A DNA stretch of 64,000 nucleotides from a virus. Location of the stretch: positions 62,001-126,000 of the IMG/VR virus record IMGVR_UViG_3300020203_000008; one strand, given 5' to 3'. The position numbers and the translations under genes are program-made. The notes under the pieces were generated by a model. The model worked only from the letters and a program-made list of their open reading frames with translations, had not been told where the DNA came from and did not search any database. Position 1 is the stretch's first letter. Each line of letters opens with the position of its first letter. Below are positions 1 to 62,210 of the stretch, piece by piece.

Positions 1-927
1 GAAGTAATAGAAAACGAAGATATATACACTTTGGATTGGCATTCACAGAAAGGCGAATGGGTTCCTGTTGAGAAGATTCTTCAATATGAGGGTTCGCATC
101 CAGTTCGCCATATACGTACTCGTTGTTTTGATGCCGTGACAACACTTAATCACCGATGGTGGACGGAACGTTATGATCCTTATTCCAAGAAGCGAATTCG
201 AGAGTGGAGAACAACAGATACGCTGCGAGCCGCATCGTCTATTCCTTTGAGGGCAGAGCCGGGAAGTAATCCTATTGAGTCTATTTATAGTGATTCGCTT
301 GTCGAACTAGTCGCTTGGTTCTGGACGGAAGGTCACTTCAGAAGAGGGCGTAAATCCTTCTGTGGTGCAGGGCTAGCTCAGTCTGAAGATGTCAATTCTG
401 TTTATGTTAAGAGAATACGCGAATGTATCGAGGAAGTATTTGATAAAAAAGATTGGCGACAATCCTCAAGAAATGGGATGGTTGAATGGCATTTGTCTGC
501 TGTTGCGGCACGATTTCTTAACCAATATGTAACGGCCTATGAAAAGATTGTTCGACCTGAGTTTATTGCTTCTCTTACTTTAGAACAACTCAATTTGTTT
601 ATTGAAACTTCAATTGATGCTGATGGATGGCGTCAAGTTGATGGAGCTAAGCTGGGTCAGTCTTCTCTGGATCGTTTACGATCTTTTGAAATGGCGTGTG
701 TATTAGCGGGTAGATCTATTCATACTTGGCAGCGATCCGATCTTACAGGATGGGTAACTACTCTGCTAGTTCGAGATAACGTTACCCCCATTTCGACTTG
801 TAAGATTTCGAGAAATGTTGAAGTGAGAACCCTCGACTACAATTATTCTGGAATTGTTTGGTGCCCACGGTCTCGTAACAATACTTTTTTGGCTCGTCGG
901 AATGGTTCCATCTATTACACGGGAAAT
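1..927 (+). mobile_element. Intein with LAGLIDADG homing endonuclease inside terL (5' truncated)
   Basis: Splicing block B (TTLNH, a TxxH motif) lies near base 150, and the C-terminal splicing block (GIVWCPRSRNNTFLARRNG then YYTGN before Thr) ends at base 927. The penultimate residue is Gly instead of the usual His, followed by Asn and +1 Thr; the same 'GN/T' ending occurs in other phage terminase inteins. Between the splicing halves are two LAGLIDADG-type helices, LVELVAWFWTEGHF (bases 298-339) and LNLFIETSIDADGW (589-630), each with its acidic residue, so the endonuclease may be active. The N-terminal splice junction is off the window. A 60-base sample at 421-480 has only 22 G+C, lower than the flanking gene. 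Confidence 0.85.
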
Positions 928-1191
928 ACAGATAAGCTTCGATTGCTGGTGGATGAGAAGCGTCTCTGGTTACCATGGGACGAAGATCTTATTGCTGAAT
1001 ATCAAGGACAGACCTACAAGGTTGTTCGATCAGCTATGAATCAATATGGGAAGAAAGAGTTCAGTCAGGGTAAGTTCCACGCGTTAGATGCTTCTCGAAT
1101 GGCTATCTTGGGATGGGCTCAGTATCAGATTGAGGAGATGATGGGCGAGAAAAATAAGGTTGAACCGGTCCTAGAACGCTTCGGACTTTAA
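1..1191 (+). CDS. terL: Terminase large subunit, C-terminal part, interrupted by an intein (5' truncated by window edge)
   Basis: The reading frame is open from base 1, so the gene begins left of the window. Bases 1-927 encode most of an intein. From codon 928 (Thr, the +1 extein residue) to the stop there are 87 residues of host protein containing the segment FHALDASRMAILGW, which fits the end of the RNase H-like nuclease domain of phage terminases, where a late acidic residue helps bind metal. The terminase motor packages DNA into the prohead and cuts it. Position directly before portal, protease, scaffold and capsid genes supports this call. The ATPase domain and the N-terminal extein are not visible here. 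Confidence 0.85.
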   Translation, partial: EVIENEDIYTLDWHSQKGEWVPVEKILQYEGSHPVRHIRTRCFDAVTTLNHRWWTERYDPYSKKRIREWRTTDTLRAASSIPLRAEPGSNPIESIYSDSLVELVAWFWTEGHFRRGRKSFCGAGLAQSEDVNSVYVKRIRECIEEVFDKKDWRQSSRNGMVEWHLSAVAARFLNQYVTAYEKIVRPEFIASLTLEQLNLFIETSIDADGWRQVDGAKLGQSSLDRLRSFEMACVLAGRSIHTWQRSDLTGWVTTLLVRDNVTPISTCKISRNVEVRTLDYNYSGIVWCPRSRNNTFLARRNGSIYYTGNTDKLRLLVDEKRLWLPWDEDLIAEYQGQTYKVVRSAMNQYGKKEFSQGKFHALDASRMAILGWAQYQIEEMMGEKNKVEPVLERFGL

Positions 1192-12309: not shown

Positions 12310-15300
12310 ATGGCTGATAACAATTTCGAATTTGGATTTACGTTCGACTGGTCTCAGCCAGAGCGCTCTACCGAACAGTTTATCCAAAAGGTCCGACGCG
12401 AGCTACAGCGTCTAAATCAGCTCTCTGTCTCGGGTGGTTCTCCGCTTAAGGGGGTTGAGGCTCTAGACTCGTCTACAAAAAAGCTGCTAGAGAGTGGAAG
12501 GCGCGCGAGCAGCTCTGCTACCGGATCTTCTCCTGCGGGTAAGCTGAATGAACAAGAAAAGGCGCGGGCTAGCGGCTTATCGGCCGAAACCAAAGCTCAG
12601 GGTCAGGCTGTTGAGGCGGTCAATGAGCGCCGTAGAGCCATTGATGCTCAAACTCGTCAGGCTGCACTCTTTACCAAACAAGACGCAGCAAATCTTCAGC
12701 AACTCAAGCGAGTCAGAACCCAGAATGCTCTCACTAGTGAGGGCGCTGTTACTGCCGGTGATAATAAGGCAGCAGGGGAACTCGTTGCCGCTAAGCGTCG
12801 TAGAGCCACAGCAGAACAACAGGCTGCTGAGAATGCAGTAAATCCTGGTGACATTAGGGCTAATGCTGAGCTAGCTTCTTCTAAGCGTCGTCGTGCTCTG
12901 CGTGAGAACCTTGCGGCTGAGCGCACTTATACACCTGCTGAAATCCAGGCAACTGGTGATCTCGTTGCGGCTAAGCGTCGTCGCGTTACGAAGGAACAAC
13001 AGGCTGCTGAGGGGGCTATTACTCCACAGGATAGGCAGGCAAGTGCCAATCTAGCGGCCATCAAGCAACGGCGTGTCGCACAGGAACGTGCGATTACAAC
13101 TCGTCAGACGGCTAGTGATCAGGAACTTTTACGAGCTAATGCCGAATCTGTTGTCAATTCTCGTTTGCGTTCGGCTCGTGAGAAGTCGTTTGTTAATGAG
13201 GCTGCTCTTGGCAAGGGTCCAAATGCTGGAACTGCTGCTACTGCTGCGAAGCTTGATGCAGAGAATGCAGTAAATTCGAAGCGAATCCGCGCCCAGCAGC
13301 AGGCTCTTGAAGAAAAGGCTATTGCGAGCGGTCCTGGTGGTAGGACCGGGTTCGTAAATGAGCAGGCCGGAGCACGATCAAGTCAGGCTCTCCTTAATGC
13401 ACAAATCAGAGCCGAGGCTACGCGTAGGCAGGCAGCTAGTTCTGAATATACTTCGGCGGTTGCTTCCACCGCCATCTCTCAGCGTCGTCTGAAGGCCAAG
13501 GTAGATGAGCAAGTAGCGAAGGCAGTTGTTGGAGATAGCGCGACCCTGCAACGCGAAGCAAATGCTGCTGTAGCTAAGAAAACTGCTGCAAACATTAAGT
13601 CTGCCAAAGTAGCGGAAAAGATTCTTGCTAATCAGTCAGGTGAGCTTGACGAGATTGTTCGTGCCAAGGTCGCTAATAAGCGACTCACTGCTGCTATTCA
13701 AGCTCGTGTTAATGCGGAATTGAAGGCTGCCCAGAACACTAATACGGCACCCGGCTCGGCTCAGGGTGGCGGAACCTTGTTCCAGCGTCTCCAATCACGC
13801 TTTGCTCAGCGAGGTAGTGGGCAGGGGGGGCAGGATCTACGTGCTCCTGAAGAGTTCCAGCGTCTCGGTCAGTTCGTTGGATCTAAGGCTCTTACTACCG
13901 GAGCTTTCGCCTTCTCGGGTGCAGCTCTCTTCGGTGTAGTGAATACAATCCAGGCTGCGGTTGAAGAGGCAAACAAGTTCCAGGTGGTTATGGTTTCCGT
14001 GGAACAGCAGTTGATTTCCACAGATCAGGCTGGTCAACTACCACAGTTCCGTAAGGCTATTATAGACATCTCTAATGAGACGGGGGTTGCAGCCTCCGAG
14101 GTTGGTTCCGTTGCATTCCAGTTGAGGGGTGCATTCGGAGACACGGCTAAATCAGTCGCGGAGGCTAGCGCAGCGATTAAGCTCTCTGTCGTTTCTGGTC
14201 TATCGGTAGGAGATATTACTGATAGCCTTACCGCTACTGCATTGTCCTACAAGACTTCGATTAATTCGATTGGTGACTCAGCCCTTGGTATTCAGGAGCG
14301 TACCGGTGTGCTCGCTAAGGAGACCATCCGATTTGTGGCCGATATTGCTCCGGTGGCTAAGCAGGTAGGTCTTAGCCTCAAAGAGATCACGGCTATTGGT
14401 GCGGTTGCTCAGCAGCAGAGTGGTCGTGGTGGTGCTGCATTAGCTGAAGCCTTTGGTCGTATCCTTCCGGAGGTTCAGAAGAGTGGGTCAGCAATCCTTG
14501 AGTTGTATAACTCCACGCCTGCTCTGGCTGGACGTGTTGGCCAAATAGGTAATGCTCTGTCTCAAGGTAATACGGGGACTGTACTTAAGGCTCTTATTGA
14601 TGATTATGGCAAGCTTGATAGAACTACACAGAACTATGTCGTTACTCTACTCGGTGGTCGTCGTGAAGCTGCTTCTCTTATCCCGGTCCTCCGGAATGCC
14701 AGTAAAGTAAACCAACTGATTGCCCAATCGTCTACTGATGCAGGTAAGACGCAGGAGTATTTTGCTAGGGTTCAGAGAACCCTTTCGACTGAGGTTCAGC
14801 GCATCACTCGTGAGTTCCAGAACTTCATCGGAACGCTACTGCGTGCGGGCCTTTCGGACATCTTGAGGGATGTCCTCATCGTGGGAGGGCTTCTTCTCCG
14901 TGTTATCGGTGGGCTGGCCCGTACCTTCCAGTCCCTTAATGAGGTTCTTGGTGGCTTCCCGGTAAAGATTCTCGCCGGAGCGGCAGCAATGGCTTTGCTT
15001 CTTAAGAGTGCAAGAGCTTTGGGTGGACTAAACCTTGTTCAGTCTCTCGGTGGATTCTTTGGAATAGGTTCTCGGGCTGGTGGCCTAGGTGGAGTCCGAG
15101 GAATTGCCGGTCGTGTCGGTAACTTCTTTGGAGCTTCTTCTAATGCTGCACAATCTCAGCGTGCTGCTGCTCAGTCTGCTTCTGCGGCTCGGGGTACCCA
15201 GTTCTCTTCGCTGCTCGGACTCAATCAGGGTGGACTTCAACAGGCTCCGTTAGGTGGCCGACTTGGTGGGATAAACCAATTTGTTCGCGGTCAGTCCAAC

Positions 15301-17751
15301 TTCTTCAATCGAAGTAGTGGATTTGCTAACACAGTCGGTGCTGGTCTTGCTTTCGCTGGTGTTAATGTCCTCTTGGATTCTCGCACTAAGTACCAATCTG
15401 AAGCCTTGGACTGGGCGAACCGGATTCGAAGTGCCGATGAAGATGCTGTTGACAAGATTATTGCCAAGTACAATAAGCAACAAGCCCCGACAAATACTCT
15501 CAAGGACAGTATCAGCGGCAAACTCAATGGACTCCTCCCTGTCGGTGGAGCGCTTCAGGGTCTTGCTGCATTCCTTACTAACGAGGAGTTCCGGGGTGAA
15601 GTAACAACCTTCTTTAGTGGGGGAAAGACCAAGGACGACGTTGTTGAAGATTCTCTCCAGCAAAGACGTGCAGCCAACAATACCGTTCCTCTCTTAGAAG
15701 CATTCAAGAGTGAGTATAAGAAGAGGAATACTGCAAGAATTGTTAAGTTCAAGGAGGTTGTTGATTTTCTACAGAGCGGTCAGTTCGGTGAGGGTAAGAT
15801 TCTTGAGATCTTCAAGGAGCCGGAAGCGGCAGCTAAGCTCACCGGCAAGCAAGCAGCGAAGCAGATTCAAGCTGTTATAGACTTCTTGGGTGACGGTTCA
15901 GATGATGCTGCCAATCAGATCGTTGAAAATTATATCCAGATTCTACAGAGCAACCCGGCTACTCCTAAGAGGCTCTTGAAGAATGTTGTTGCCGCGCTTC
16001 GTGATTCCCAGAAAAAAGCTTCAGATCAAGCTGGACCGACTGGCGCTGATCGCGAGACTCTTGATACATCCAAGGCTCTTTTTGAGGCTGGAGATAAGCC
16101 TCTTAATGAATACATCAAGTCCCTTGATTCTTTTATCTCGGCGCTTAAGACTATAAAAGATCCTAGTGATGATCAAAAGAAGGACCTTGCCCAGAAGCAG
16201 AAGGAGGCTAGGGACGCCCTAACGACTGCGGCGAAGGAACAGAACGATCTCATCAAGTTTGTGGATGAACTTCGTGCTGGCGAAGCTCGTCCAATTGACC
16301 AGCTAAATGCAGCGAGAGGACTACTAAATAATCCCAATCTTACGGCAGAGGGTCAGGTTGAAGCGGCTAAGGGAGTTCTCTCTGCCCAGCAGGATGTGTT
16401 CCTCCAAGCTGTTACTTCTTCGGGCAAAGGCATCGGTAGCGTTATTGCTGATCTACAGGCCGGATTTAAGCCTGACGCCAAGGCACTTGCAGTCATTCGG
16501 AAGCGAGTAGCTGACCTTAATGCTCGTGGTATCAACGTCAGTGTTGATGATATTGTTGCTGGTCAGGCCAAGGGTGCCCGTGAGGAAGTAAACAAGCTTC
16601 TTGATCTTCAGGGTCGTCAGTCTGCCGTGGCGATTGGACCTAATGCTGTCAACCAGGCAGCCCTGTCTCTGCGTACCGCTCAGGCGAAGCTTAAGAATGC
16701 TGCTCCAGGTACAAGTACAATTGAAGCACAGACGGTTGTCCTTGAAGCCCAGAAGGGCTTGAATGATGCTATTAGGACTCAGGCTCGGGCCGTTGAAGAT
16801 GGTTACCAGGCACTCTCTCGGGCCTCGCTTGGGAATCAGAATCCTATTGCCCAGGCCAGGTTCGATATCGCTGGCGCTGATATCGCCACCCGTCGCGCCT
16901 ACGAGGACCAGGATCCAGGTGCCCTAATCCAGGCGCTGGCTACTCGTCGCCAGGCTGGGGTTGCCCTCTTGAAGGCGCAACAGGACATTGACGACGCTTA
17001 TAGGGAACTTCTCAAGAGTCAGACGAACGATCCAATTAAGCAGGCTTACTCAGATATTGTTGCAGCCAGTGTTGCTTTCGACAGAGCTAATGCTCAGAAC
17101 GACCAGGCCGCTGCCTTCCGGGCCTTGGCCCAAAGGAATGAAGCCATCAAGGCAGGGCTTGCTAGCATTAGTGACCTGTACTCTTCCATTAATGAGTTTG
17201 CTACATCCCTCGCCAACTTTAAGGGCGATGCGGTGTCGGCTGCCGAGATCAGTGTCACTGAGGCTACTAGGAAGCTCCAGGAAGCCGTCAGTCAGGATGC
17301 TGGTCAGGCTTCTATTAATCGGGCTCGGGCGGCCCTACAGGATGCTCAGGGGGGTCTCCGGGATTCCAAGCTGAACAAGCAGTTGGACGATATCGACTTT
17401 GCTTTGGAGCTATCCAAGATCTCTGTTAATCAGGCCATTCAGCAGTTAACTGCTCTCCTCCAGATTCCTAATCTAACAGAGGAGCAGACTCGTGGAATTC
17501 TGCGTAAGATCAACTCCCTGAAGCAGGGACTGAGCCAGGATCTCCAGTTTAATCTGCCAACTGAATTGAAGTTGCCTACCCTCTACGAGTCTCGCCGCTT
17601 GAACCAGAGCAATGGGGCTTACCAGGATAATCGAGTTATATCTATTCAGTTGTCTCCGAATACTCCGACAGATCTTAATGCGGCAGTACAGCAGATTGTG
17701 GATGCCGTGAATCAGCCTCCTGTACTCGGATCAAGACCTAGGATTTATTGA
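12310..17751 (+). CDS. Tape measure protein
   Basis: An 1,813-residue protein, the longest in the window, directly after the chaperones. It sets tail length by spanning the tube; at about 0.15 nm per residue this predicts a tail of roughly 270 nm. Residues about 30-470 are Ala/Gln/Arg/Lys-rich helix containing 30-residue repeats. Residues about 525-850 carry the conserved-looking tape measure core (ISNETGVAASEVGSVAFQL, then AAIKLSVVSGLSVGDITDS). Hydrophobic helices follow near residues 855-905 (LIVGGLLLRVIGGLA and ILAGAAAMALLLKSA), which may insert in the membrane during DNA entry. The C-terminal third is again helical. No peptidase domain was recognised. Confidence 0.92.
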   Translation: MADNNFEFGFTFDWSQPERSTEQFIQKVRRELQRLNQLSVSGGSPLKGVEALDSSTKKLLESGRRASSSATGSSPAGKLNEQEKARASGLSAETKAQGQAVEAVNERRRAIDAQTRQAALFTKQDAANLQQLKRVRTQNALTSEGAVTAGDNKAAGELVAAKRRRATAEQQAAENAVNPGDIRANAELASSKRRRALRENLAAERTYTPAEIQATGDLVAAKRRRVTKEQQAAEGAITPQDRQASANLAAIKQRRVAQERAITTRQTASDQELLRANAESVVNSRLRSAREKSFVNEAALGKGPNAGTAATAAKLDAENAVNSKRIRAQQQALEEKAIASGPGGRTGFVNEQAGARSSQALLNAQIRAEATRRQAASSEYTSAVASTAISQRRLKAKVDEQVAKAVVGDSATLQREANAAVAKKTAANIKSAKVAEKILANQSGELDEIVRAKVANKRLTAAIQARVNAELKAAQNTNTAPGSAQGGGTLFQRLQSRFAQRGSGQGGQDLRAPEEFQRLGQFVGSKALTTGAFAFSGAALFGVVNTIQAAVEEANKFQVVMVSVEQQLISTDQAGQLPQFRKAIIDISNETGVAASEVGSVAFQLRGAFGDTAKSVAEASAAIKLSVVSGLSVGDITDSLTATALSYKTSINSIGDSALGIQERTGVLAKETIRFVADIAPVAKQVGLSLKEITAIGAVAQQQSGRGGAALAEAFGRILPEVQKSGSAILELYNSTPALAGRVGQIGNALSQGNTGTVLKALIDDYGKLDRTTQNYVVTLLGGRREAASLIPVLRNASKVNQLIAQSSTDAGKTQEYFARVQRTLSTEVQRITREFQNFIGTLLRAGLSDILRDVLIVGGLLLRVIGGLARTFQSLNEVLGGFPVKILAGAAAMALLLKSARALGGLNLVQSLGGFFGIGSRAGGLGGVRGIAGRVGNFFGASSNAAQSQRAAAQSASAARGTQFSSLLGLNQGGLQQAPLGGRLGGINQFVRGQSNFFNRSSGFANTVGAGLAFAGVNVLLDSRTKYQSEALDWANRIRSADEDAVDKIIAKYNKQQAPTNTLKDSISGKLNGLLPVGGALQGLAAFLTNEEFRGEVTTFFSGGKTKDDVVEDSLQQRRAANNTVPLLEAFKSEYKKRNTARIVKFKEVVDFLQSGQFGEGKILEIFKEPEAAAKLTGKQAAKQIQAVIDFLGDGSDDAANQIVENYIQILQSNPATPKRLLKNVVAALRDSQKKASDQAGPTGADRETLDTSKALFEAGDKPLNEYIKSLDSFISALKTIKDPSDDQKKDLAQKQKEARDALTTAAKEQNDLIKFVDELRAGEARPIDQLNAARGLLNNPNLTAEGQVEAAKGVLSAQQDVFLQAVTSSGKGIGSVIADLQAGFKPDAKALAVIRKRVADLNARGINVSVDDIVAGQAKGAREEVNKLLDLQGRQSAVAIGPNAVNQAALSLRTAQAKLKNAAPGTSTIEAQTVVLEAQKGLNDAIRTQARAVEDGYQALSRASLGNQNPIAQARFDIAGADIATRRAYEDQDPGALIQALATRRQAGVALLKAQQDIDDAYRELLKSQTNDPIKQAYSDIVAASVAFDRANAQNDQAAAFRALAQRNEAIKAGLASISDLYSSINEFATSLANFKGDAVSAAEISVTEATRKLQEAVSQDAGQASINRARAALQDAQGGLRDSKLNKQLDDIDFALELSKISVNQAIQQLTALLQIPNLTEEQTRGILRKINSLKQGLSQDLQFNLPTELKLPTLYESRRLNQSNGAYQDNRVISIQLSPNTPTDLNAAVQQIVDAVNQPPVLGSRPRIY
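12769..13128 (+). repeat. Four 90-bp (30-residue) repeats in the tape measure gene
   Basis: Units start at 12769, 12859, 12949 and 13039. The first three align without gaps and share A-x-x-(E/D)-L-(V/A)-(A/S)-(A/S)-KRRR at the start; the fourth is degenerate (NLAAIKQRRVAQE). A related, shorter unit precedes them. Repeats in a tape measure change tail length by fixed steps. Confidence 0.85.
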
Positions 17752-25278: not shown

Positions 25279-25635
25279 ATGGCTGTAACTGCATCTGCTT
25301 CAGGAACTCAGACCGCAGAAGTGACGACAGAACATCAGTTGGCAGATACTTATGTCGCTGGAACTTATACGTTCCATGTTGATACGGTTAACCTGGCGGC
25401 GGGAGATGTTGTTGAGCTGAGAATTTACCAAATGATCTTGAACGGTGGAACCGCTAGGGTCATCTACTCAACCAGATATGCAGGCGCTCAGCCTACCGAC
25501 GATCTCATTAAGGTTAGCGTACCTGTTAGTAGCGAGCTAGGTTCTGCCTCGCCAAGCGTAGCGCTGCGATTCAGCTTGAAGCAGACTTTCGGGACTTCCA
25601 GGAACTTTCCTTGGAAGGTACTTAAGTACGCCTGA
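25279..25635 (+). CDS. Small tail-region beta protein
   Basis: A 118-residue protein with alternating strands (GTYTFHVDTVNLAAGDVVEL, IYQMILNGGTARVIYST). It overlaps the next gene by one base. It is similar in style to small fibre-associated proteins found in other actinophages, but no function is known to me. Confidence 0.55.
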   Translation: MAVTASASGTQTAEVTTEHQLADTYVAGTYTFHVDTVNLAAGDVVELRIYQMILNGGTARVIYSTRYAGAQPTDDLIKVSVPVSSELGSASPSVALRFSLKQTFGTSRNFPWKVLKYA

Positions 25636-27227
25636 TGGCATCTGCGTCGACCCGCCATATTGAAGTTCTCTTACCTACTATAGCCGGATTGGTTAATCCA
25701 ACTGTAGTAATAGCTACAAGCGCGGTTGGTTCTCCAGCGATTCAGACTAGTTCCACGGTTGTTGTCTCCACTGTTACTGCTGTTGCGGCGGTGGGGGTTG
25801 CTACAGTAGAGACTGGTACTCCAGCTACAGTTAATGCAACGGCGGTGAGTGCTGTTGCTGCGGTTGGAACGGTAACTATCACGACATCAGCCCTTGTGAC
25901 TGCCGTTGTGGTGTCTCGTTCTGTGGCGGTAGGTGTACCTACAATCTCCACTATTACTTCTTCTCCAGTAAATGTTGCTTGCGGGGTGTTCAGTAAATCC
26001 ACATCCGCTGCTCCAGTGTCGCAATCTGTTACGCTTGGGTTTCAGCCCAAAGCGGTATTTCTGTGGTCTGATAGTACGACCGTTGATGACACTCTAGCCA
26101 CTAATGGCATGTTCACGGTGGGTATTACATCCTCTGTTACAGACTCTATCGCCGTGTGTAATTATGCACCTAATGGGAGCAACTCGATCAACCGGCATAA
26201 GACACATGGAGATAGCAAGCTTATTGTTTTCAGGACAACAACAATTCTAGCAGAAGCCAGCCTGACATCTTTTAATGTAGATGGATTCACTATGTCGTGG
26301 ACCACCAATAATGCCACGGCATACCGGATTAACTATATAGCCTTTGGCGGCGATGACGTTACTGCCCAGATGGTGAAATGGTATCCCACCGACAATATCG
26401 AGCAGTTCTCTGTTACTGGGGTGGGCTTCCAGCCTGATGCACTTCTTAATGTCAACAGTTATGTCAACTTTGATGGAGGATCTCTTCCCCGCACTGTCAC
26501 GGGAATCAACTTCGGGATTGGGGCAGCTTCGCCTTCAGGGCAATTTACCACTTACATGGGGGAGACGACGGGCTTCGGGGGCAACGAGGTTTCTTATTCT
26601 AGGTTCATTGATGATGGTTTCGTAAGCTTCAATGGATTTTTGGGGGGAACAGAGAGTTGTAGAATTGCCCTTGTCTCAATGGATGTAGACGGATTTACGG
26701 TGAATGCTACGAAAGTGGGCACCGGAGCCATTGAATTATACGCATTAGCGTTAAAATTTGATTCTGGGTCTATAGAAGTAGGAAACTTCCAGAAATCCAC
26801 ATCCTCTGCTCCAGCTACACAGAATTTGTCTAGCGTGGTCATCTCTCCAGATTCTATGTTCTTTGTTGGGGATAAAGTTACGACGCCAGATACCGATGTA
26901 GCTAACGCTCATCTCTATGTGGGTTCAGGGGATGATGCTGCTCAAGTGAGTACTGCTTGGGGGGCCAGGAATGGGACGAATCCATCTGAAGTTAAGTCGA
27001 TCAGTGGGGGCACTAAAGCTATTACTGTTAATGATGGCACTAATATGGGTGTCGCTGATGCTAAAGCTTCGCTATCTCTAGCGTCAGCGATTCCGGTTCT
27101 CACTTGGGACCCCAACTCATCTAATGCCGTTAATATGGGTTATATGGCATTCCAGTTCGGCGTGGAGTCTGGTGGCGGTGGGGGATCTGGCAATGCTGTC
27201 TTGACTCCTGGCTTCATTCCACTCTGA
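25635..27227 (+). CDS. Tail fibre protein with Val/Ala/Thr repeats and duplicated C-terminal domain
   Basis: A 530-residue protein. Residues about 25-115 are a low-complexity Val/Ala/Thr stalk (for example VSAVAAVGTVTITTSA). Two related domains follow: one opening GVFSKSTSAAPVSQSVTLGF near residue 118 and one opening NFQKSTSSAPATQNLSSVV near residue 385. The stalk-plus-domains layout is that of a fibre ending in receptor-binding parts. It is the last of the fibre cluster. Confidence 0.65.
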   Translation: MASASTRHIEVLLPTIAGLVNPTVVIATSAVGSPAIQTSSTVVVSTVTAVAAVGVATVETGTPATVNATAVSAVAAVGTVTITTSALVTAVVVSRSVAVGVPTISTITSSPVNVACGVFSKSTSAAPVSQSVTLGFQPKAVFLWSDSTTVDDTLATNGMFTVGITSSVTDSIAVCNYAPNGSNSINRHKTHGDSKLIVFRTTTILAEASLTSFNVDGFTMSWTTNNATAYRINYIAFGGDDVTAQMVKWYPTDNIEQFSVTGVGFQPDALLNVNSYVNFDGGSLPRTVTGINFGIGAASPSGQFTTYMGETTGFGGNEVSYSRFIDDGFVSFNGFLGGTESCRIALVSMDVDGFTVNATKVGTGAIELYALALKFDSGSIEVGNFQKSTSSAPATQNLSSVVISPDSMFFVGDKVTTPDTDVANAHLYVGSGDDAAQVSTAWGARNGTNPSEVKSISGGTKAITVNDGTNMGVADAKASLSLASAIPVLTWDPNSSNAVNMGYMAFQFGVESGGGGGSGNAVLTPGFIPL

Positions 27228-27244
27228 TTTATGTCGATATGTTC

Positions 27245-27261
27245 GTGACCTAAGGAGTCAC
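27245..27261 (+). promoter_or_regulatory. Hairpin around the pup ribosome binding site
   Basis: GTGAC (27245-27249) and GTCAC (27257-27261) are perfectly complementary and enclose CTAAGGA. The AAGGAG ribosome site therefore lies in the loop and first stem base, directly before the ATG at 27262. The stem is only five pairs, so this may be chance, but it is placed where folding would limit translation of pup. Confidence 0.35.
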
Positions 27262-27447
27262 ATGGGACAGATCCGTAAGCAGAGAAAAGTCGAGAAAAAG
27301 GTTGAGTCTGTAGCGGAACCGGTCGAAGCCAAGGACAGTACTGCCCTTAAAGCTGAAATGGATGCACTCCTAGATGAGATTGATTCAGTCCTAGAGGAAA
27401 ATGCAGCGGAGTTTGTTAAAGGCTACATTCAAAAAGGGGGGGAATGA
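27262..27447 (+). CDS. pup: Prokaryotic ubiquitin-like protein Pup, phage-encoded
   Basis: A 61-residue protein ending LEENAAEFVKGYIQKGGE. The last 26 residues match bacterial Pup (LLDEID-VLEEN-A-EFV--Y-QKGG-), including the coiled-coil that Mpa binds and the C-terminal Gly-Gly. The N-terminal half is charged and disordered, as in Pup. The gene encodes a C-terminal Glu, not Gln; Pup-Glu is the form that PafA ligates, so no deamidation by Dop would be needed. No PafA, Dop or proteasome gene is visible in the window, so host enzymes would be used. It follows the fibre genes and overlaps the next start (ATGA). Confidence 0.92.
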   Translation: MGQIRKQRKVEKKVESVAEPVEAKDSTALKAEMDALLDEIDSVLEENAAEFVKGYIQKGGE

Positions 27448-27659
27448 ACGAAGAAGACGAGCTACTTCGCAAGCTGGACGAAGAAATGCAGGATCGCAAG
27501 GTCATCTCCCTCATCCTCCGAGAGGGGCAGCCGGTGGAGGTCGAAAATGGAGGGCTTCCAGCCGATACTGTATTAGCAACACTATTTAAGGCTCTACTTT
27601 TCCTGGTCTTGGATGATTATATGGATGAAGACGAAATCCTTTACGAGGAAGAAGACTAG
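27444..27659 (+). CDS. Small acidic protein coupled to pup
   Basis: A 71-residue protein whose ATG overlaps the pup stop (ATGA). It is very acidic at both ends (MNEEDELLRKLDEEMQD; DEDEILYEEED) with a short hydrophobic helix ATLFKALLFLVL in the middle. Coupled translation suggests it may act with Pup, but there is no recognised domain. Confidence 0.65.
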   Translation: MNEEDELLRKLDEEMQDRKVISLILREGQPVEVENGGLPADTVLATLFKALLFLVLDDYMDEDEILYEEED

Positions 27660-27673
27660 GGAAGAAGAGAGCG

Positions 27674-27862
27674 GTGAACAAAATCGCCATCCAGAGGGCT
27701 AATGGGATTACCAGAATTGGGATTCTCTGTGAAGGTCATACCTCCGATGCGATTGGAATTCTCGTTAAAGCGGGTAAGGAATACCGGATACGAGAGTACG
27801 ACGGGCCTCAAATCTGTGAAGCCTGTGGACAAACAGACTATCTCCATGTGGAGGAGGGTTAA
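27674..27862 (+). CDS. Small protein with CxxC motif
   Basis: A 62-residue protein with a GTG start after a purine-rich stretch. The C-terminus contains ICEACGQTDYLHV, a half zinc-ribbon or redox-type CxxC. Its stop overlaps the next ATG by one base. No function is recognised. Confidence 0.55.
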   Translation: MNKIAIQRANGITRIGILCEGHTSDAIGILVKAGKEYRIREYDGPQICEACGQTDYLHVEEG

Positions 27863-28203
27863 TGAATTCGATTGTAAAGCTTGATGTTGGTTTCTTGGCC
27901 ATCGTTGCGGGTACGTTCATTCCGATCGTGGTCGCATTGGTAACCAAGTGGAAGACATCTTCAGGAGTCAAGGCTGTCGTTAATGGTTTACTAGCCGCTG
28001 TAGCCGGTGCTGTCGCTGTCGCTACCCAGGCTAATGGAGTCGTTAACGTCAGGAATACGGTAGGGGCTATTGCTCTAGCGTGGTTGACTTCTGTTGCCAC
28101 CTACTATGGCCTTTGGAAGCCAACTGGAATTGCTAATGCAGTTGGTGAGAAGACCCAGAACGTGGGTATTGGTTCGAATCAATCCGGTATTCCGGGGGCA
28201 TAA
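27862..28203 (+). CDS. Holin candidate (three membrane helices)
   Basis: A 113-residue protein with predicted membrane helices at about residues 9-28 (FLAIVAGTFIPIVVALVT), 36-58 and 66-86, and a short polar C-terminus (GEKTQNVGIGSNQ). Length, helix number and place beside other small membrane genes fit a class I holin, which makes the lysis pore in the inner membrane. No endolysin is visible nearby, so the lysis role is inferred. Confidence 0.6.
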   Translation: MNSIVKLDVGFLAIVAGTFIPIVVALVTKWKTSSGVKAVVNGLLAAVAGAVAVATQANGVVNVRNTVGAIALAWLTSVATYYGLWKPTGIANAVGEKTQNVGIGSNQSGIPGA

Positions 28204-28205
28204 TT

Positions 28206-28472
28206 GTGGACCGGCTAAAGTCGGGCACGGCAGGATGGGTCCTTCTCACCGCATTAGTGTTGAGTTGGGACTACGGAGTAGGTATGCGGGCGGGGGGAGA
28301 AACTCTCTCTTCCAGTTTTGCTAGAGCCACTCGCCATCCCCGTGCCCGATGGCCGGTTATATCTATGTGGGTTATCATAACGGCTCATTTGTTTGAACGG
28401 TTGCCAGAGATGGTTGATCCATTTCATCATATGGCAAAAGTAGTCAGCACGCGGGGGGCGGGGCGTGAGTGA
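28206..28472 (+). CDS. Small membrane protein of the lysis region
   Basis: An 88-residue protein with a GTG start and two probable membrane helices (GWVLLTALVLSWDYGVGM and RWPVISMWVIITAHLF). The segment between, AGGETLSSSFARATRHPRARW, resembles a small actinophage membrane protein often next to holins. It begins a patch of unusually high G+C. Confidence 0.6.
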   Translation: MDRLKSGTAGWVLLTALVLSWDYGVGMRAGGETLSSSFARATRHPRARWPVISMWVIITAHLFERLPEMVDPFHHMAKVVSTRGAGRE

Positions 28473-51527: not shown

Positions 51528-51843
51528 GAGCCAACTCCTTAGCTACCCTCAGCAATCCCTCAGTGGCAGCCTCAAGATCTTCAATCGTTGGGACACGGGC
51601 CAAAGTTAGTCCCTTGCTGTTGATGGTAAAGGTTTGTGAGTACCAGTAATCTTCGAAACCTTCTGCTAAATGCACGGCCACATGCGGTAATATTTCGCTG
51701 CGGTTAGGTGAAGGACTTATGGAATCTACGACGACGTGAACACCGTTTAGCTTGTCTATACCGGAGGAGTCTACGCGCCAGGCTGTGGTGTCAATAACAT
51801 ACGTCTCGCCGATAATGACACTATAGGGAGTTGAAGATCTCAC
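51517..51843 (-). CDS. Phage protein downstream of ViaA-like gene, unknown
   Basis: A 108-residue protein starting at GTG 51843 inside the end of the ViaA-like gene. It is beta-rich (PYSVIIGETYVIDTTAWRV). Overlap suggests coupled expression with the VWA protein. Confidence 0.6.
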   Translation of the reverse strand: MRSSTPYSVIIGETYVIDTTAWRVDSSGIDKLNGVHVVVDSISPSPNRSEILPHVAVHLAEGFEDYWYSQTFTINSKGLTLARVPTIEDLEAATEGLLRVAKELAHGS

Positions 51844-53410
51844 GGACCGATTCCCCTGAAGTCAACGACTTAATAGTCGCGACCTGCTGATCGCAAATCG
51901 TCCACATAGGTTCATCTCTAGCGGATCCACCAATGTTCACTCCCCAGACCTGGAAACCAAGCCGGTCCTGTTCCTTCTTGAACTCCGTGAGCCACTGATC
52001 ATCCACACTGCACATACCATCAGTAGCGAACACGATGTCGGCCTTAACTGCACCAAACCGTTCGTGCTGCTCCTGAAGGATTGTCAGAGCATGAGTGAGG
52101 GGAGTCCGGAAATCGGTTCCCCCACCGAAGAAGAATTCAGCGAAGTCGAGCACCTTGTCGGCGTCGATGTTCTGTGAATCCCTAAAGTCGTCAATCCTGA
52201 TTTGGTGCGGACTGCCGAACTGGATTGCATAGAACTCTCGCTTCTGCTTCCTCGCAATGTGCAGCAAGCACAGACCAAGAGCCTTGGTCCATATTTCAGG
52301 CTCACCACTCATCGAACCAGAACCATCGTGGCAGAAAACAATGCCGCCCTTAGCGACCTTCTCATAACCGCGCATCTTGTACTGAAGCAGGTTCCGATCC
52401 ATGTACTGCTTGAAGAACTTCATCCTCCGTAGAGGGTGCATAAGCTGTCCAAGCTCAGACGGCAGGACACGACGCAGGTTATTGCCCTGCTCCACGTCAT
52501 ACACTTCTTCCGGCGTGTAGTTCACCTTGCGCCGGTTCTCGGTGAAGGCCAAACGCTTCATAGGACCAAACAGTTCAGCGATCTTCTTAAACTTCGGGCT
52601 ATTCAACTTCCGTGCAAGTTCCATACGCTCATTGGCGGGCAGACGGTGAAGTTGACCCGGCTCCAAACCCCAAGCCTGAGCCATGTTCTCCTGGGCTTCC
52701 ATGTCCTCATTGGCCTGCTTCATGGCCTGCTTCATAGCGCCACGGATCTCGGGACCCGCACCGTTCAAAGCATCCTTAAGCTCCTGGCCCTTCTCCTGCA
52801 TCTGCTGCTGGAGAGCTTCCATACGCTCCTGAAGCTGCTTAGCCTTCTCCTGGTAATCCTGAGGCTCCGAATCTTCGGGGTTGTTCTCAGTCCAATCCTT
52901 GAACATCTCCTCAAGGTCGCGCTGCTCCTGCTGAGCCTGAGCCATCTGCGCCATAAGCTCCTGAAGTTCCTGAGCAAGTTTCTGCTCCCCTTCGAGCTTG
53001 TCGTAAAGCGTTTCTATGTCAGGCTCAATGGTGTTGAATGCCAGAGCCGCACCAATGTCGTCGCCCTGAGTCCACATACGCAATTCTCTGTAGTCAGGGA
53101 GATCTACTGCTTCCTGCATAACCTTGCGGTTAACGAGGTTTTGAGGACGCACCTTGTTCTCGTCCAACAGGTCAGGATCAACCTTCCAAAGAGACAGGTA
53201 AAGATCCTGGGTTACTGGATAGGCAAGATCGCCAGCCTTGGAGTCGGCCAGCTTGTCTCGCATAGCCCGATATTCCTTCATCTCCTCTAGGAGACGTTGG
53301 TGATCTTGCCGGTCGTAACGGTCGCTATCAATCGTAAATGGTGAAAGGTCGTTAGGGTTTGGGCTCTTCTTGCCCTTACCCATCCAATCTTTGAGAAAAT
53401 CCTTAGCCAT
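51821..53410 (-). CDS. VWA protein, ViaA-like, partner of the RavA-like ATPase
   Basis: A 529-residue protein. The first 300 residues include a long Gln/Glu/Leu coiled coil (ALQQQMQEKGQELKDALNG). The VWA domain begins with VFCHDGSGSMSG (about residue 360), supplying the DxSxS metal site, followed by FGGGTDF and VFATDG, the other metal-site parts. Together with the RavA-like ATPase about 700 bases upstream, this matches the RavA-ViaA pair. ViaA is a CoxE-type VWA protein that stimulates RavA. The phage role is unknown. Confidence 0.8.
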   Translation of the reverse strand: MAKDFLKDWMGKGKKSPNPNDLSPFTIDSDRYDRQDHQRLLEEMKEYRAMRDKLADSKAGDLAYPVTQDLYLSLWKVDPDLLDENKVRPQNLVNRKVMQEAVDLPDYRELRMWTQGDDIGAALAFNTIEPDIETLYDKLEGEQKLAQELQELMAQMAQAQQEQRDLEEMFKDWTENNPEDSEPQDYQEKAKQLQERMEALQQQMQEKGQELKDALNGAGPEIRGAMKQAMKQANEDMEAQENMAQAWGLEPGQLHRLPANERMELARKLNSPKFKKIAELFGPMKRLAFTENRRKVNYTPEEVYDVEQGNNLRRVLPSELGQLMHPLRRMKFFKQYMDRNLLQYKMRGYEKVAKGGIVFCHDGSGSMSGEPEIWTKALGLCLLHIARKQKREFYAIQFGSPHQIRIDDFRDSQNIDADKVLDFAEFFFGGGTDFRTPLTHALTILQEQHERFGAVKADIVFATDGMCSVDDQWLTEFKKEQDRLGFQVWGVNIGGSARDEPMWTICDQQVATIKSLTSGESVREIFNSL

Positions 53411-53588
53411 GAGTTAGCCTTACTTCCGTGATTCTGTTACGCTGGATTGCAAGTTTGCTTTCAACAAAAACGTAATCCTTGTCCCAGCCAGTTACGGTCC
53501 AAGCACAGTTATCGTCATCATCATCAATGATGACTTGATCTCCTTTTTCAATCTCAATTTCTCTGGTAGCTTTTATCTTAAGGCTCAT
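53403..53588 (-). CDS. Small protein between RavA- and ViaA-like genes
   Basis: A 61-residue beta-like protein (KATREIEIEKGDQVIIDDDD, then WTVTGWDKDYVFVES). It overlaps the ViaA-like start by eight bases. Looks like an SH3- or KOW-like barrel; function unknown. Confidence 0.6.
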   Translation of the reverse strand: MSLKIKATREIEIEKGDQVIIDDDDDNCAWTVTGWDKDYVFVESKLAIQRNRITEVRLTHG

Positions 53589-54053
53589 TTAAATCCCCAA
53601 TACCTTCCTGGTAAAGATCGGCTTAATCAATTCCTCTAGCCCCTTAAAAGCATCACCTTGGATGCCGATATTCGTTCCTCCGTAGCTCAGGTGGTTGGGA
53701 ACACCAAGTGTAACAAGCATCTCACTCAGTCTAACGCCTGTTGCCTTGTGTTCCTCCATCCGCTCTTGCCTAATCGTTTGTGCAATCTGATGCTTCTTGA
53801 TATTGAAAGCTTCTTCAGATTCGCGCTTAGCAGATTCATCGGCATAGTCTTTCCACCAACCAACGATAGACCGACCATGGATCTTGTAGTCCATCCCAGT
53901 GAGAGTTGTGGAGTTAAGGTAAACAACCATTGGGTGACCCGTCTTGTCCCCAACGCGCTTAACTACACCTTTTACTGGGTGGAGCAAACCCAAGTTAAAC
54001 TTCTTGGAGACGATGGCAACTTCGGCTCCAGGGTAAAGATCGTCAGCGTTCAT
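53589..54053 (-). CDS. Protein in the RavA/ViaA cluster, unknown
   Basis: A 154-residue protein starting at ATG with GGAAGGAG ahead. The N-terminus (DDLYPGAEVAIVSKKFN, HPVKGVVKRVGDKTG) is beta-barrel-like, the rest helical. It lies after a hairpin and directly before the two VWA-cluster genes. Confidence 0.6.
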   Translation of the reverse strand: MNADDLYPGAEVAIVSKKFNLGLLHPVKGVVKRVGDKTGHPMVVYLNSTTLTGMDYKIHGRSIVGWWKDYADESAKRESEEAFNIKKHQIAQTIRQERMEEHKATGVRLSEMLVTLGVPNHLSYGGTNIGIQGDAFKGLEELIKPIFTRKVLGI

Positions 54054-54073
54054 CTGTCTCCTTCCGGGAGGGC

Positions 54074-54100
54074 TTGGGAGAGGGACGTTCCCCCTCCCAA
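54074..54100 (-). terminator. Hairpin after the RavA-like gene
   Basis: TTGGGAGAGGG (54074-54084) and CCCCCTCCCAA (54090-54100); on the minus strand all 11 positions pair, one as G-U, around a five-base loop. No T run follows, and the next ribosome site begins right after it, so it may attenuate or stabilise rather than fully stop. Confidence 0.5.
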
Positions 54101-54110
54101 CAAAGCTGCA

Positions 54111-55298
54111 CTAGAGAGAGACTTCAGTGTCGATATTGAAGATCTCTTTGAGCAGCCGCTTCGTGACACTCAACAGCCGGGTACGAACTTCCTCGACCTT
54201 GGCAGACTTACGCTTAGAAGACTCCACCTGCTTAGACAGCTTGTGGAGATCATCCTTAGCCTTGTCAACCTTGTTGTGAAGCTCCACACCCTTCTTGTTC
54301 TTCAACTGCGGATCAACCGACTTGTCAGCAAGAACCTTGTCAAGCTCACTTGACAGCTTCTCAACAGTTTCAAGCAGGCTCATAGCTTCCTTGTCGAGCG
54401 GATTTGCAAGCTCCAGAAGGAGACGCTCAACCTTAGGCTGCTCTTCCTTAGAAGTCCACAGGACGTGAGCCAAGGGACGCATGTGCTCGATATCCGCAAC
54501 CGTCTGACCGTCCAGATATGCGGCAGCCCTGATAATCTTCAGGCACTCCACAAAGCGTCGGTCGGTCGGCTCGATACCATCGGTGCGGAGATCCGCCCGG
54601 ACAGTCTGGAGGGCATCCAGAACGTCTCCAGGGACCTCAACAGCCAGACTGGCCTGGTGAGCTTCCTGAATCTCATCCCAAGTGATGAGCTTGTCGGTCG
54701 GTCCAGAAGCACTGATCTTGAGCATCTGGATAAAGTTCCCAGGCTCCTGAATGCGCTTCGTGATCAGCCGGAACTGCACTCGGTCATAGATGGCGTTCAG
54801 TTCCTCACCATCGGGAAGCTCGTTAGAAGCACAGAACATGGTGTGAAGGGGCAGGTCATGCACCTGACCATCGTTCCGGAACTTCCGTTCGTTCAATGCC
54901 CAAAGAAGCGTGTTCAGAATAGCCGAGTTGGCCTTCCAAATCTCGTCCAAGAACCAGACGTGAGCCTCAGGGGCAAAGCCCTTAGTGACGAATGCGAAAC
55001 GATCCTCTTCCAGGCCCTTAAGGCTGACAGGACCGTTGATCTCTTCCGGAGTGGAAGTACGGGTCATGAGCGTGTCGAAGAAGTTGTAATCTCCGCCGAT
55101 CATTTCCATCATCTTCACAATGGACCGCGACTTGGCCACACCAGGCTCACCGAGCTGGAAGTGGTGAGTCCCGGAAACCAAAGCGAGAACCTGAGTCTCG
55201 ATGATGTCGTTACGCTCGATCAGGTGGGTCCGGAGACCATCCTTCAGAGTCTCGAACTTCTCCGGCAAAGTCGGAGTAGTGGTGGTGGTGTCTGACAT
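54111..55298 (-). CDS. MoxR AAA+ ATPase, RavA-like
   Basis: A 395-residue ATPase. Walker A GEPGVAKS (50-57), then LMTRTSTPEEINGPVSL, Walker B WFLDEIWKANSAILNTLL, FCASNELPDG and the arginine-finger segment YDRVQFRL. The phrases LMTR-STPEE, FLDEIWKA and ASNELP match RavA closely. A helical C-terminal region (from about 300) replaces the RavA LARA insertion. The paired VWA gene supports a RavA-ViaA type chaperone-like system. Confidence 0.85.
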   Translation of the reverse strand: MSDTTTTTPTLPEKFETLKDGLRTHLIERNDIIETQVLALVSGTHHFQLGEPGVAKSRSIVKMMEMIGGDYNFFDTLMTRTSTPEEINGPVSLKGLEEDRFAFVTKGFAPEAHVWFLDEIWKANSAILNTLLWALNERKFRNDGQVHDLPLHTMFCASNELPDGEELNAIYDRVQFRLITKRIQEPGNFIQMLKISASGPTDKLITWDEIQEAHQASLAVEVPGDVLDALQTVRADLRTDGIEPTDRRFVECLKIIRAAAYLDGQTVADIEHMRPLAHVLWTSKEEQPKVERLLLELANPLDKEAMSLLETVEKLSSELDKVLADKSVDPQLKNKKGVELHNKVDKAKDDLHKLSKQVESSKRKSAKVEEVRTRLLSVTKRLLKEIFNIDTEVSL

Positions 55299-59443: not shown

Positions 59444-59621
59444 GCTCTTGGAACCTCCTAAACATATTGAGATCGATTTTTACGGTTTCAGGCGGTGAGA
59501 CCACCTGCATAACACAAGTCACGGTACGGGTACCATGTTCTGAACATGGATAAAGACCACCGATGGTGACCTCTAGGTAATCTGAATCAAATTTACAGTC
59601 GCAATCTAGACGGACTTTCAT
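59436..59621 (-). CDS. Small zinc-type protein
   Basis: A 61-residue protein; ATG 59621 overlaps the upstream stop (ATGA). It opens MKVRLDCDCKFDSDYLEVT, then LYPCSEHGTRTVTC, so four Cys and a His are available for metal. Overlaps the Ku start by eight bases. Confidence 0.6.
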   Translation of the reverse strand: MKVRLDCDCKFDSDYLEVTIGGLYPCSEHGTRTVTCVMQVVSPPETVKIDLNMFRRFQEHG

Positions 59622-59872
59622 AACGATCTCGTTTCCAAGATTGCCCACTGTTGAGGCGTAAGAAATACTTTCTCGTCCTTAGCAACAATAGAAAGTGTTG
59701 CTCCTTCGATATCCCAGTCAACAGCAATGTCGGAGATATCAAGTTCTTTGCCGTTCACTGAGACAATAAGTGCGTAAAGGTTGCCGGAACGAACAGAAGG
59801 ATCACTGAGCGCACCCTGAAGAACCTCAGCCGCTTCTTGTGGCGTAAAAGTCTCATCCAACTCAAAGCTCAT
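59618..59872 (-). CDS. Phage protein, unknown
   Basis: An 84-residue protein (FTPQEAAEVLQGALSDPSVR, then LYALIVSVNGKELDIS). Starts at an ATGA overlap. Function unknown. Confidence 0.6.
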   Translation of the reverse strand: MSFELDETFTPQEAAEVLQGALSDPSVRSGNLYALIVSVNGKELDISDIAVDWDIEGATLSIVAKDEKVFLTPQQWAILETRSL

Positions 59873-60051
59873 TTAAATCCTCCATCTTCATCTAACCATG
59901 TAGATCCATTTCGAATCAGCCATGAACAAGTAGCGAGATGATATCGACGGTCTTCTAGCTTGTAAAGAGTGTTGCGGCGCTGTGCTAACGGAATAAGAGC
60001 GGCAGGGACTAAAGTGCTCCTACCTTGCAGGCGCTTCGGGGGAACTCTCAC
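59869..60051 (-). CDS. Small protein (60 aa)
   Basis: GTG 60051 overlaps the stop of the small membrane gene (GTGA). It ends RYHLATCSWLIRNGSTWL. Arg/Leu-rich; function unknown. Confidence 0.5.
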   Translation of the reverse strand: MRVPPKRLQGRSTLVPAALIPLAQRRNTLYKLEDRRYHLATCSWLIRNGSTWLDEDGGFK

Positions 60052-60155
60052 AATGGAACTCCATCGTTCACCTTTGGGGTCTTAGCTATAATCACCCAGA
60101 ACAAAATCTGATATGGGATGAGCGTGACTATGAGATATAGCCAAATCTCGTCCAT
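60048..60155 (-). CDS. Small membrane protein (35 aa)
   Basis: ATG 60155 to TGA at 60048. MDEIWLYLIVTLIPYQILFW is a single membrane helix with a short polar tail. The stop overlaps the next GTG. It fits exactly the 109-base space after the HicA-like gene. Confidence 0.55.
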   Translation of the reverse strand: MDEIWLYLIVTLIPYQILFWVIIAKTPKVNDGVPL

Positions 60156-60160
60156 GGGAC

Positions 60161-60373
60161 TCACAATTGAACTCCATGTGCTCGCAGCCACTTTTCAATC
60201 TGCTTAATACGTCGCATATCACCAGAGGTAAGAGCCGAAGTGAGAAACTCACCCGTTTTCGGGTCAGACCATCTCAAATGGTTTCCTCGCGTGATGGTGA
60301 CTTCAATGCCACCCTTGCGTGCCTTCCTGGCAAGCTTCTCAACGTCCTTGTTTGCACCTAGCTTTTGACTCAC
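60161..60373 (-). CDS. HicA-like protein, no visible HicB partner
   Basis: A 70-residue protein. ITRGNHLRWSDPKTGEFL carries the His of the HicA active site (GxHxxW/P context) and the C-terminus (MRRIKQIEKWLRAHGV) continues the dsRBD-like fold. HicA proteins are mRNA interferases normally paired with HicB antitoxins; no HicB is seen in the neighbouring genes. It may serve as a regulator or takeover RNase. It overlaps the previous gene by four bases. Confidence 0.65.
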   Translation of the reverse strand: MSQKLGANKDVEKLARKARKGGIEVTITRGNHLRWSDPKTGEFLTSALTSGDMRRIKQIEKWLRAHGVQL

Positions 60374-60855
60374 TTGATCAACTCCTTAAACATTCGTTTC
60401 AGAGCCGAAATGGCCCCGTTAACCTCATCTGGCGTAGCAGTCAGATAAGGATAAAGCATATCCTCGACGGTACTTCGAATGTCACCGTGCATGCCACTAA
60501 GATCATCAGCGGACCAGGCGTAGCCCCCCCACGACAACAAGATAGCTGAGTTGCACGACAACAAGATAGCTGAGTTGCCGGGCAGGTAGAAATCAACTTG
60601 AGTGCTATCAACTGTTACCCATGTGTCACACTTTGTGCAGGTCAGTTTCTCGATGCAGATAAAGAATACCAAATAGTTACTGATATCACCATAAGTGCCG
60701 AGGTAGTCTACAAAGGAGAGTTCCTTGCCTTCCTGACTGAAAAAGGGACTTTCGGCGTACTTCTCTTCAGTGTCCCATTGAGATAGGTAGTCTTCGGTCA
60801 TTGAGTAGTCGTAGTCTTCTCCAATAACTACTCTGAGGTTATCAAAATAGGTCAT
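60370..60855 (-). CDS. Phage protein with eight-residue duplication, unknown
   Basis: A 161-residue acidic protein (TEDYLSQWDTEEKYAESPFF) with CTKC in the middle. It carries NSAILLSC then NSAILLSW from a perfect 24-bp tandem repeat. It lies before the HicA-like gene. Function unknown. Confidence 0.6.
   Translation of the reverse strand: MTYFDNLRVVIGEDYDYSMTEDYLSQWDTEEKYAESPFFSQEGKELSFVDYLGTYGDISNYLVFFICIEKLTCTKCDTWVTVDSTQVDFYLPGNSAILLSCNSAILLSWGGYAWSADDLSGMHGDIRSTVEDMLYPYLTATPDEVNGAISALKRMFKELIK
60530..60577 (-). repeat. Perfect tandem 24-bp duplication, in frame
   Basis: Copies at 60530-60553 and 60554-60577 are identical over all 24 bases, giving eight extra residues. Perfect identity suggests recent origin or slippage. 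Confidence 0.95.
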
Positions 60856-60862
60856 CGTCCTC

Positions 60863-61393
60863 CTATACGGTAATAGCCTTAGGCTCAGGCAGAAGCTCAG
60901 CTACCGTAGGGATACGCTCCAAGAAGGACTTAGCTGCATCAGATTGCAATGCATCAATTGAGATTTCCTTCTGAAGATCCACACTCTGTCGATCAACGGC
61001 AATGACAGCACGGGCATAGTCGTTGGACAGTTTGGCCTCAAGACGCTGAAGGTCCTCACGGACACTTCGCTTGATAACGGTCACTTGGGTTACGTTATCG
61101 TGACGAATGCCGGAGCCGAAGGTAATGAAATAACCCATTTCCTCATACTCAGCACCCAAGGCTCGTGCAGCCATCACTTCCTTCTTGGCCTTCAAAAGAT
61201 GCTTCTGAAGGTCCTTCTGGATGGTCTTAATCTGCGTGTCGCTGTCATTCTGGTAAGCCTGGGTGAGAGACAAAGCAAGCTCATCCCTCCGGACCTTAAG
61301 CTCTGCCTTGAGGATTTCAAAGTCGCGCTTAATGATGCTACGAAGCTCGCGTCGTTCAGTAGGGCTCATAACCCCAGGTTCAGTCTTTGCCAT
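60863..61393 (-). CDS. Phage protein, helical, unknown
   Basis: A 176-residue helical protein starting at ATG 61393, with GGAGG six bases upstream (61399-61403). It opens MAKTEPGVMSPTERRELRSI and includes IKTIQKDLQKHLLKAKKEVM. A structured hairpin element lies ahead of it. Function unknown. Confidence 0.65.
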   Translation of the reverse strand: MAKTEPGVMSPTERRELRSIIKRDFEILKAELKVRRDELALSLTQAYQNDSDTQIKTIQKDLQKHLLKAKKEVMAARALGAEYEEMGYFITFGSGIRHDNVTQVTVIKRSVREDLQRLEAKLSNDYARAVIAVDRQSVDLQKEISIDALQSDAAKSFLERIPTVAELLPEPKAITV

Positions 61394-61426
61394 AATAACC
61401 TCCAATTAGATAGTAAAAATCACTCC

Positions 61427-61479
61427 GGGGGGAACGGACGCTGGGAAGCGTATGAGGGCGGACCTAATCCGTTCCCCCC
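61427..61479 (-). terminator. Large hairpin with inner stem between two genes
   Basis: GGGGGGAACGGA (61427-61438) pairs perfectly with TCCGTTCCCCCC (61468-61479), 12 bp. The 29-base loop contains a second stem, CGCT-GGGA-AGCG (61439-61450). On the minus strand a T run (ATTTTT) comes six bases after the outer stem. It could be a terminator; the organised inner stem makes a regulatory RNA structure possible too. Confidence 0.6.
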
Positions 61480-61489
61480 AAAGTGAAAC

Positions 61490-61690
61490 TTAGACCTCTG
61501 CTCTCACCAGGAAAACATCGGAAAGCGGGTTACGCACGATTTGACTGATCGCGCCTTGCGTGAGCGAGTAACGCTTCGCAACGGTCGTTTGCGGCTTACC
61601 CTGCTCGATTACCAGCTTCTTGATCCGAGCATTACGCTTAGCGATCTTCTCGGAGCGAGCCGGGTTACGGGGCATTGTAACGGACATCAT
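61490..61690 (-). CDS. Small helix-turn-helix protein
   Basis: A 66-residue basic protein with an HTH: IKKLVIEQGKPQTTVAKRYS then LTQGAISQIVRN, similar to a transposase-like or Sigma-70-region-4-like HTH. AAGGAGGTGA precedes ATG 61690. It is followed by a large hairpin, so it may control its own operon. The role is inferred. Confidence 0.65.
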   Translation of the reverse strand: MMSVTMPRNPARSEKIAKRNARIKKLVIEQGKPQTTVAKRYSLTQGAISQIVRNPLSDVFLVRAEV

Positions 61691-62186: not shown

Positions 62187-62210
62187 CAGGTCTCCTGTTC
62201 CTCCACTTCT

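Follow-up and report, generated by a model that had tools for sequence, protein, structure and literature searches.

A solo pup gene in a tailed phage and the possible use of the host Pup-proteasome pathway by phages

The pup locus and the phage that carries it

The analyzed stretch of DNA, in the following called the window, comprises 64,000 nucleotides (positions 62,001 to 126,000) of the IMG/VR virus record IMGVR_UViG_3300020203_000008, which has a size of 136,572 bases and a G + C content of 50.7%. On its plus strand an open reading frame with an ATG start (27262–27447, stop codon included) encodes a protein of 61 amino acids, MGQIRKQRKVEKKVESVAEPVEAKDSTALKAEMDALLDEIDSVLEENAAEFVKGYIQKGGE, which was identified as Pup, a small tag that some bacteria put on proteins and that directs them to the proteasome. 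The following features of the window are relevant to the locus:

1–1191, plus strand: 3' part of the terminase large subunit gene (record positions 59487–63191; 1234 amino acids with a LAGLIDADG intein-type domain)
12310–17751, plus strand: tape-measure-like protein (phrog_991, E 8.7e-6), a marker of the tail gene cluster
25635–27227, plus strand: gene of 530 amino acids without family match, probably a tail or surface protein as judged from its position
27252–27257, plus strand: AAGGAG, ribosome-binding site of pup, with the ATG 4 bases downstream
27262–27447, plus strand: pup, a complete Pup with the C-terminus IQKGGE (PF05639, PDB Pup chains, translation)
27444–27659, plus strand: acidic protein of 71 amino acids without family match, whose own ATG overlaps the pup stop codon (ATGA)
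27862–28203, plus strand: holin-like protein (phrog_8269, lysis; E 7e-10)
28206–28472, plus strand: DUF7427 protein (PF24202, E 7e-12)

That the gene encodes a complete Pup had been proposed from the sequence alone and was confirmed by profile search. PF05639 was matched across the whole profile (positions 6–69 of 69) with an E-value of 3.5e-19 and 69.9 bits, compared with a curated cut-off of 27 bits, and a search of the whole record gave 69.5 bits. Pup chains from PDB structures of complexes with PafA, Dop or Mpa matched residues 28/34 to 61 (E about 3e-9). Since cellular Pups from 199 sampled Actinomycetota genomes mostly reach 66–105 bits when searched in the same way, the window Pup is an ordinary Pup by score. 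Its C-terminus, YIQKGGE, places the two glycines and the terminal Glu directly at the stop codon. In the Pup of Mycobacterium tuberculosis (Mtb), the residues L39, E42, I43, D44, L47, E49, A51, F54, V55, K61, and G63 are perturbed by Mpa in cells (PMC3769308). Most of these residues are retained in the phage protein, where L36, E39, I40, D41, L44, E46, and A48 equal their Mtb counterparts in the Mpa-binding helix and are followed by F51, V52, K58, and G60 at the matching places.

The end of the 530-amino-acid gene is separated from pup by 34 bases, and the holin-like gene is located 0.4 kb downstream. Because pup thus lies between a gene of the tail region and lysis genes, it is probably expressed late, and its earlier assignment to a late operon fits the terminase and tape measure genes upstream, the tail genes up to 27227, and the holin-like gene at 27862. 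The coupling of pup to a small acidic protein, which had been pointed out at the same time, is seen here in the overlap of stop and start codons, but it is a local feature, as the gene translationally coupled to pup varies between phage groups.

The record derives from a tailed phage, which also encodes a B12-type ribonucleotide reductase, a primase-helicase, and a Sak4-like annealing protein. Outside the window it contains 38 genes for tRNAs and one for a tmRNA (L012 and L013, record positions 1–40000); the tRNA set includes a CTA anticodon, and the predicted tag of the tmRNA ends in ALV. A MoxR-type AAA ATPase and a vWA-domain protein are encoded close together on the minus strand of the window (51821–55298). 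The closest relatives of the ribonucleotide reductase are the enzymes of Actinomycetia phage DSL-LC01 (47%) and of mycobacteriophages, and this proximity to enzymes of actinobacterial phages suggests an actinobacterial host; the best matches of the primase-helicase and a nuclease were uninformative in this respect. A search for relatives with or without pup yielded only one contig (L002/L063), which is among the Pup-bearing IMG/VR contigs described below, is 99.985% identical over 20 kb and represents the same phage.

Pup in other phages and in cellular genomes

In three scans, Pup was found on 49 IMG/VR contigs, and the 32 intact viral Pup sequences all differ from each other. Among GenBank phages, the cultured Streptomyces phage Dagobah was the only one in which a Pup was found; its gene product HUN42_00036 (QMP84414.1) is annotated as 'ubiquitin-like protein Pup', yet it is absent from the phage's own paper (PMC7650747). 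MT835496 (MT835496.1, 'Bacteriophage sp.' in GenBank; L009, L010, L011) was rejected as a candidate phage with both Pup and PafA, as it shows a bacterial mpa-dop-pup-pafA locus with the genes side by side and is likely miscalled. Plasmids were searched as well and yielded no Pup. Structural genes (terminase, portal, head protease or major capsid) adjoin pup at loci L066, L076, and L087, replication genes are found near it at L065, L079, L081, L082, L085, and L097, and endolysins at L077, L082, and L089. Clustering of the neighbors at 36 loci recovered only phage-group-specific genes and no conserved partner gene beside pup.

The Pups of Dagobah (L008), L083, L089, and L107 are 74–78 amino acids long, with additional sequence in the coiled coil that looks as if the Mpa-binding part had been extended or partly repeated. 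Another viral Pup (L078:6750-6857) has the non-canonical tail NYVQAQGQ, which departs from the GG motif, and one residue inserted in the helix. The residues D41, L44, N47, Q57, G59, and G60 are invariant across 23 viral Pups and include the ligase-recognized tail. Viral pup genes are under purifying selection, with dN/dS ratios of 0.06–0.34 between pairs of related viral Pups, all of them from viruses other than the window phage, whose only close relative found is the 99.99% identical copy. In most pairs dN reached its minimum in the final 30 codons, which encode the region recognized by PafA, Dop, and Mpa; the Dagobah/L083 pair is an exception.

The sequence-only reading had emphasized that the phage encodes the Glu form of Pup and so needs no deamidation by Dop. 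A Glu tail indeed spares this step (PMC8223512), but it is nothing special to the phage. Glu and Gln endings occur at a ratio of 16:16 in the viral Pups (n = 32) and 16:24 in actinobacterial Pups (n = 40); of the 33 remaining cellular Pups, which come mostly from Nitrospirales, 28 end in Glu. Because Glu is common elsewhere as well, and because the phage Pups of L091 and L096 differ solely in E versus Q, the Glu ending was ruled out as a phage adaptation.

Pup was detected in 92 of the 199 sampled Actinomycetota genomes. Some cellular loci are unusual: four Saccharopolyspora genomes (G051, G055, G056, G057; L043, L048, L053, L059, L060) have two or three pup genes each, with just one copy adjoining the ligases in G051 and G057, where ligases were searched, and the Nitrospirales genomes G045, G046, and G047 have four Pup_ligase genes arranged as two pairs, with pup on a different contig. 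A 1.2-Mb metagenome-assembled genome of "Candidatus Saccharibacteria" (G050) contains a pup gene ending near position 4132 of L037, beside an rsmD-like methyltransferase gene and recG, and has no Pup ligase; the Saccharibacteria were nevertheless rejected as a second group with solo Pup, as among 287 genomes of this phylum a single one had a clear match.

The statement that the window contains no PafA, Dop or proteasome gene could be extended to the whole record, as all 136,572 bases were without a match to Pup_ligase (PafA/Dop), the 20S proteasome or the Mpa OB domain. Likewise, neither a Pup ligase (PF03136) nor a proteasome (PF00227) was found in any of the Pup-bearing viral records searched, which include fragments that may miss genes, and none of these records held a complete phage-borne pupylation system with its own ligase and protease. 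The absence of viral PafA and Dop, the lack of a common pup neighbor, and the purifying selection together indicate that the partner of the viral Pup is probably the host's own pathway.

A search of the Pup-bearing records for the OB domain of the proteasomal ATPase gave two clear matches. In both cases the contig belongs to a T4-like phage and encodes, besides the ATPase, the major capsid protein gp23 and Pup. A third contig of 73.8 kb contains the same ATPase gene (dN 0.008, dS 0.14), with no Pup on that piece. The three phage Mpa/ARC ATPase genes, whose products end in GQYL, are located as follows:

L142:7824-9425 (G042): Mpa/ARC ATPase, GQYL end
L143:267-1886 (G062), minus strand: Mpa/ARC ATPase, GQYL end
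L145:2870-4468 (G550): Mpa/ARC ATPase, GQYL end

According to the alignment to M. tuberculosis Mpa (PDB 7px9; E 4e-135), the phage Mpa is full-length, with both OB domains, the AAA domain, intact Walker motifs, and the C-terminal GQYL, which is the docking motif of Mpa for the 20S core. Among the cultured phages searched, none had a full-length Mpa gene of this type; the best match (80% query coverage) was the bacterial MT835496. Since the T4-like phages, a lineage different from that of the window phage, add a GQYL-ending Mpa to Pup, productive use of the 20S proteasome appears more likely than inhibition at least in that lineage; there, the combination favors recruitment of the host proteasome over its mere inhibition or overload.

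Probable use of the host pathway and alternative explanations

We consider it rather likely, though far from certain, that the phage supplies a ligatable Pup, which host PafA would attach to proteins during infection. The record provides a complete Pup with the Mpa-binding helix and the C-terminal stretch recognized by PafA and Dop, in a genome that lacks ligase, ATPase, and protease, and many unrelated phages likewise keep a solo pup gene under purifying selection. Late in infection, the phage Pup would supplement or replace the Pup of the host, and host PafA would couple the phage Pup through its C-terminal Glu to lysines in proteins of either the host or the phage. The helix would then be bound by host Mpa, the N-terminus threaded, and the tagged protein degraded by the 20S proteasome. 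In this way the pathway could serve the phage, for example by removal of host defense or stress proteins, or by protein turnover and recycling during assembly. Flooding of the system with Pup, diversion of the proteasome or tagging of host defense proteins, as put forward in the sequence-only reading, would be conceivable effects. The T4-like lineage may follow a related strategy, in which its own Mpa would also bypass the host ATPase.

The strongest competitor, which we nonetheless regard as unlikely, is that the phage Pup acts as a decoy: an excess of free Pup would occupy Mpa, PafA or Dop, so that host pupylation and the proteasome are blocked during infection and not used. A small gene in a late region with a strong ribosome-binding site could indeed give large amounts of product, the viral Pups keep the Mpa-binding helix, and free Pup-GGQ binds the Mpa-proteasome without being degraded (PMC3769308). 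The extra coiled-coil stretch of the longer viral Pups could strengthen such binding. Against this, conservation among the viral Pups is highest in the tail that serves for ligation, although a decoy of PafA or Dop would likewise be expected to conserve C-terminal residues, and an Mpa with intact Walker motifs and GQYL, as in the T4-like phages, would be superfluous for a virus that inhibits the pathway.

Considerably less probable is a non-degradative function, in which the phage Pup would be ligated to proteins and only the ATPase would then alter or disassemble their complexes, a mode of action of hosts that lack the 20S proteasome. Corynebacterium glutamicum, included as a control, has Pup, ligase, and an ATPase-type OB domain without a proteasome match, and the 20S proteasome may also be missing from other actinobacteria; the phage Mpas, however, end in the 20S docking motif. 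We give still less credence to a host pup gene acquired by chance and carried along without a role. The positions of pup are scattered over the phage genomes, in terminase, replication, lysis, and tail regions, as a passenger would allow, but the gene recurs in many diverged phage groups under purifying selection, the dN/dS ratios of the other lineages disfavor such a passenger, and dN of the phage Mpa is very low. Finally, a miscalled bacterial contig, for which the unannotated database 'phage' record MT835496, in which an Mpa-like ATPase gene occurs alongside dop, pup, and pafA, sets a precedent, has a negligible probability here, as the window record contains genes for head, tail, and lysis functions (terminase, tape measure, holin), which refute a bacterial origin, and also has the Sak4 annealing protein, the 38 tRNAs and tmRNA and neither pafA nor dop, and as pup adjoins terminase, portal, head protease or major capsid genes on other Pup contigs, too.

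Supply of a ligatable Pup to the host pathway thus remains the preferred explanation. As dozens of phages have Pup and a few of them also a proteasomal ATPase, Pup-bearing phages probably take over the protein-disposal system of their hosts. More tentatively, and with slightly less than even confidence, we propose that phages of proteasome-bearing bacteria include a broad, undescribed class that hijacks the Pup-proteasome pathway, many with Pup alone and the T4-like ones with a 20S-docking Mpa in addition.

Comparison with known systems

The Pup family and virus-encoded ubiquitin in baculoviruses are already known. The open-access papers searched, with subscription papers and preprints outside this scope, contained no account of Pup or Mpa encoded by a phage, in agreement with the initial remark that a characterized phage Pup is not known. 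Bacterial Pups (Mycobacterium, Streptomyces, Frankia, Nitrospirales) resemble the window Pup in length, in the charged, predicted disordered N-terminus, and in the coiled-coil helix; they reach comparable scores and have the tail F-V-x-x-[YF]-[IV]-Q-K-G-G-[EQ] in common with it. At the N-terminus, viral Pups are slightly richer in lysine and more positively charged than actinobacterial ones, but the sequences are not independent and the Nitrospirales overlap. Another difference lies in gene context, as the window pup stands alone in a phage, whereas cellular actinobacterial pup is mostly located beside dop, mpa, prcBA or pafA. Mpa/ARC has its full-length likeness in the ATPase of the T4-like phages, whereas the window phage has no Mpa. 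The Dagobah Pup, like that of the window, is solo, phage-borne, and ends in GGE, but it differs in its length of 78 amino acids with the extra coiled-coil sequence and in adjoining endolysin and primase genes.

Outside the prokaryotes, baculoviruses encode a viral ubiquitin, v-ubi, which is expressed late and feeds the host conjugation system (PMC4584293). By analogy it is a functional parallel of the phage Pup, both being virus-borne copies of the host's protein tag, although v-ubi belongs to a eukaryotic virus and ubiquitin has no relation to Pup in sequence, fold or chemistry. If the proposed role holds true, pupylation would gain a context in phage infection, which the cultured phage Dagobah on Streptomyces coelicolor makes accessible to testing, and the phage Pup would be a prokaryotic counterpart of viral ubiquitin, with a phage strategy that rests on a post-translational protein tag.
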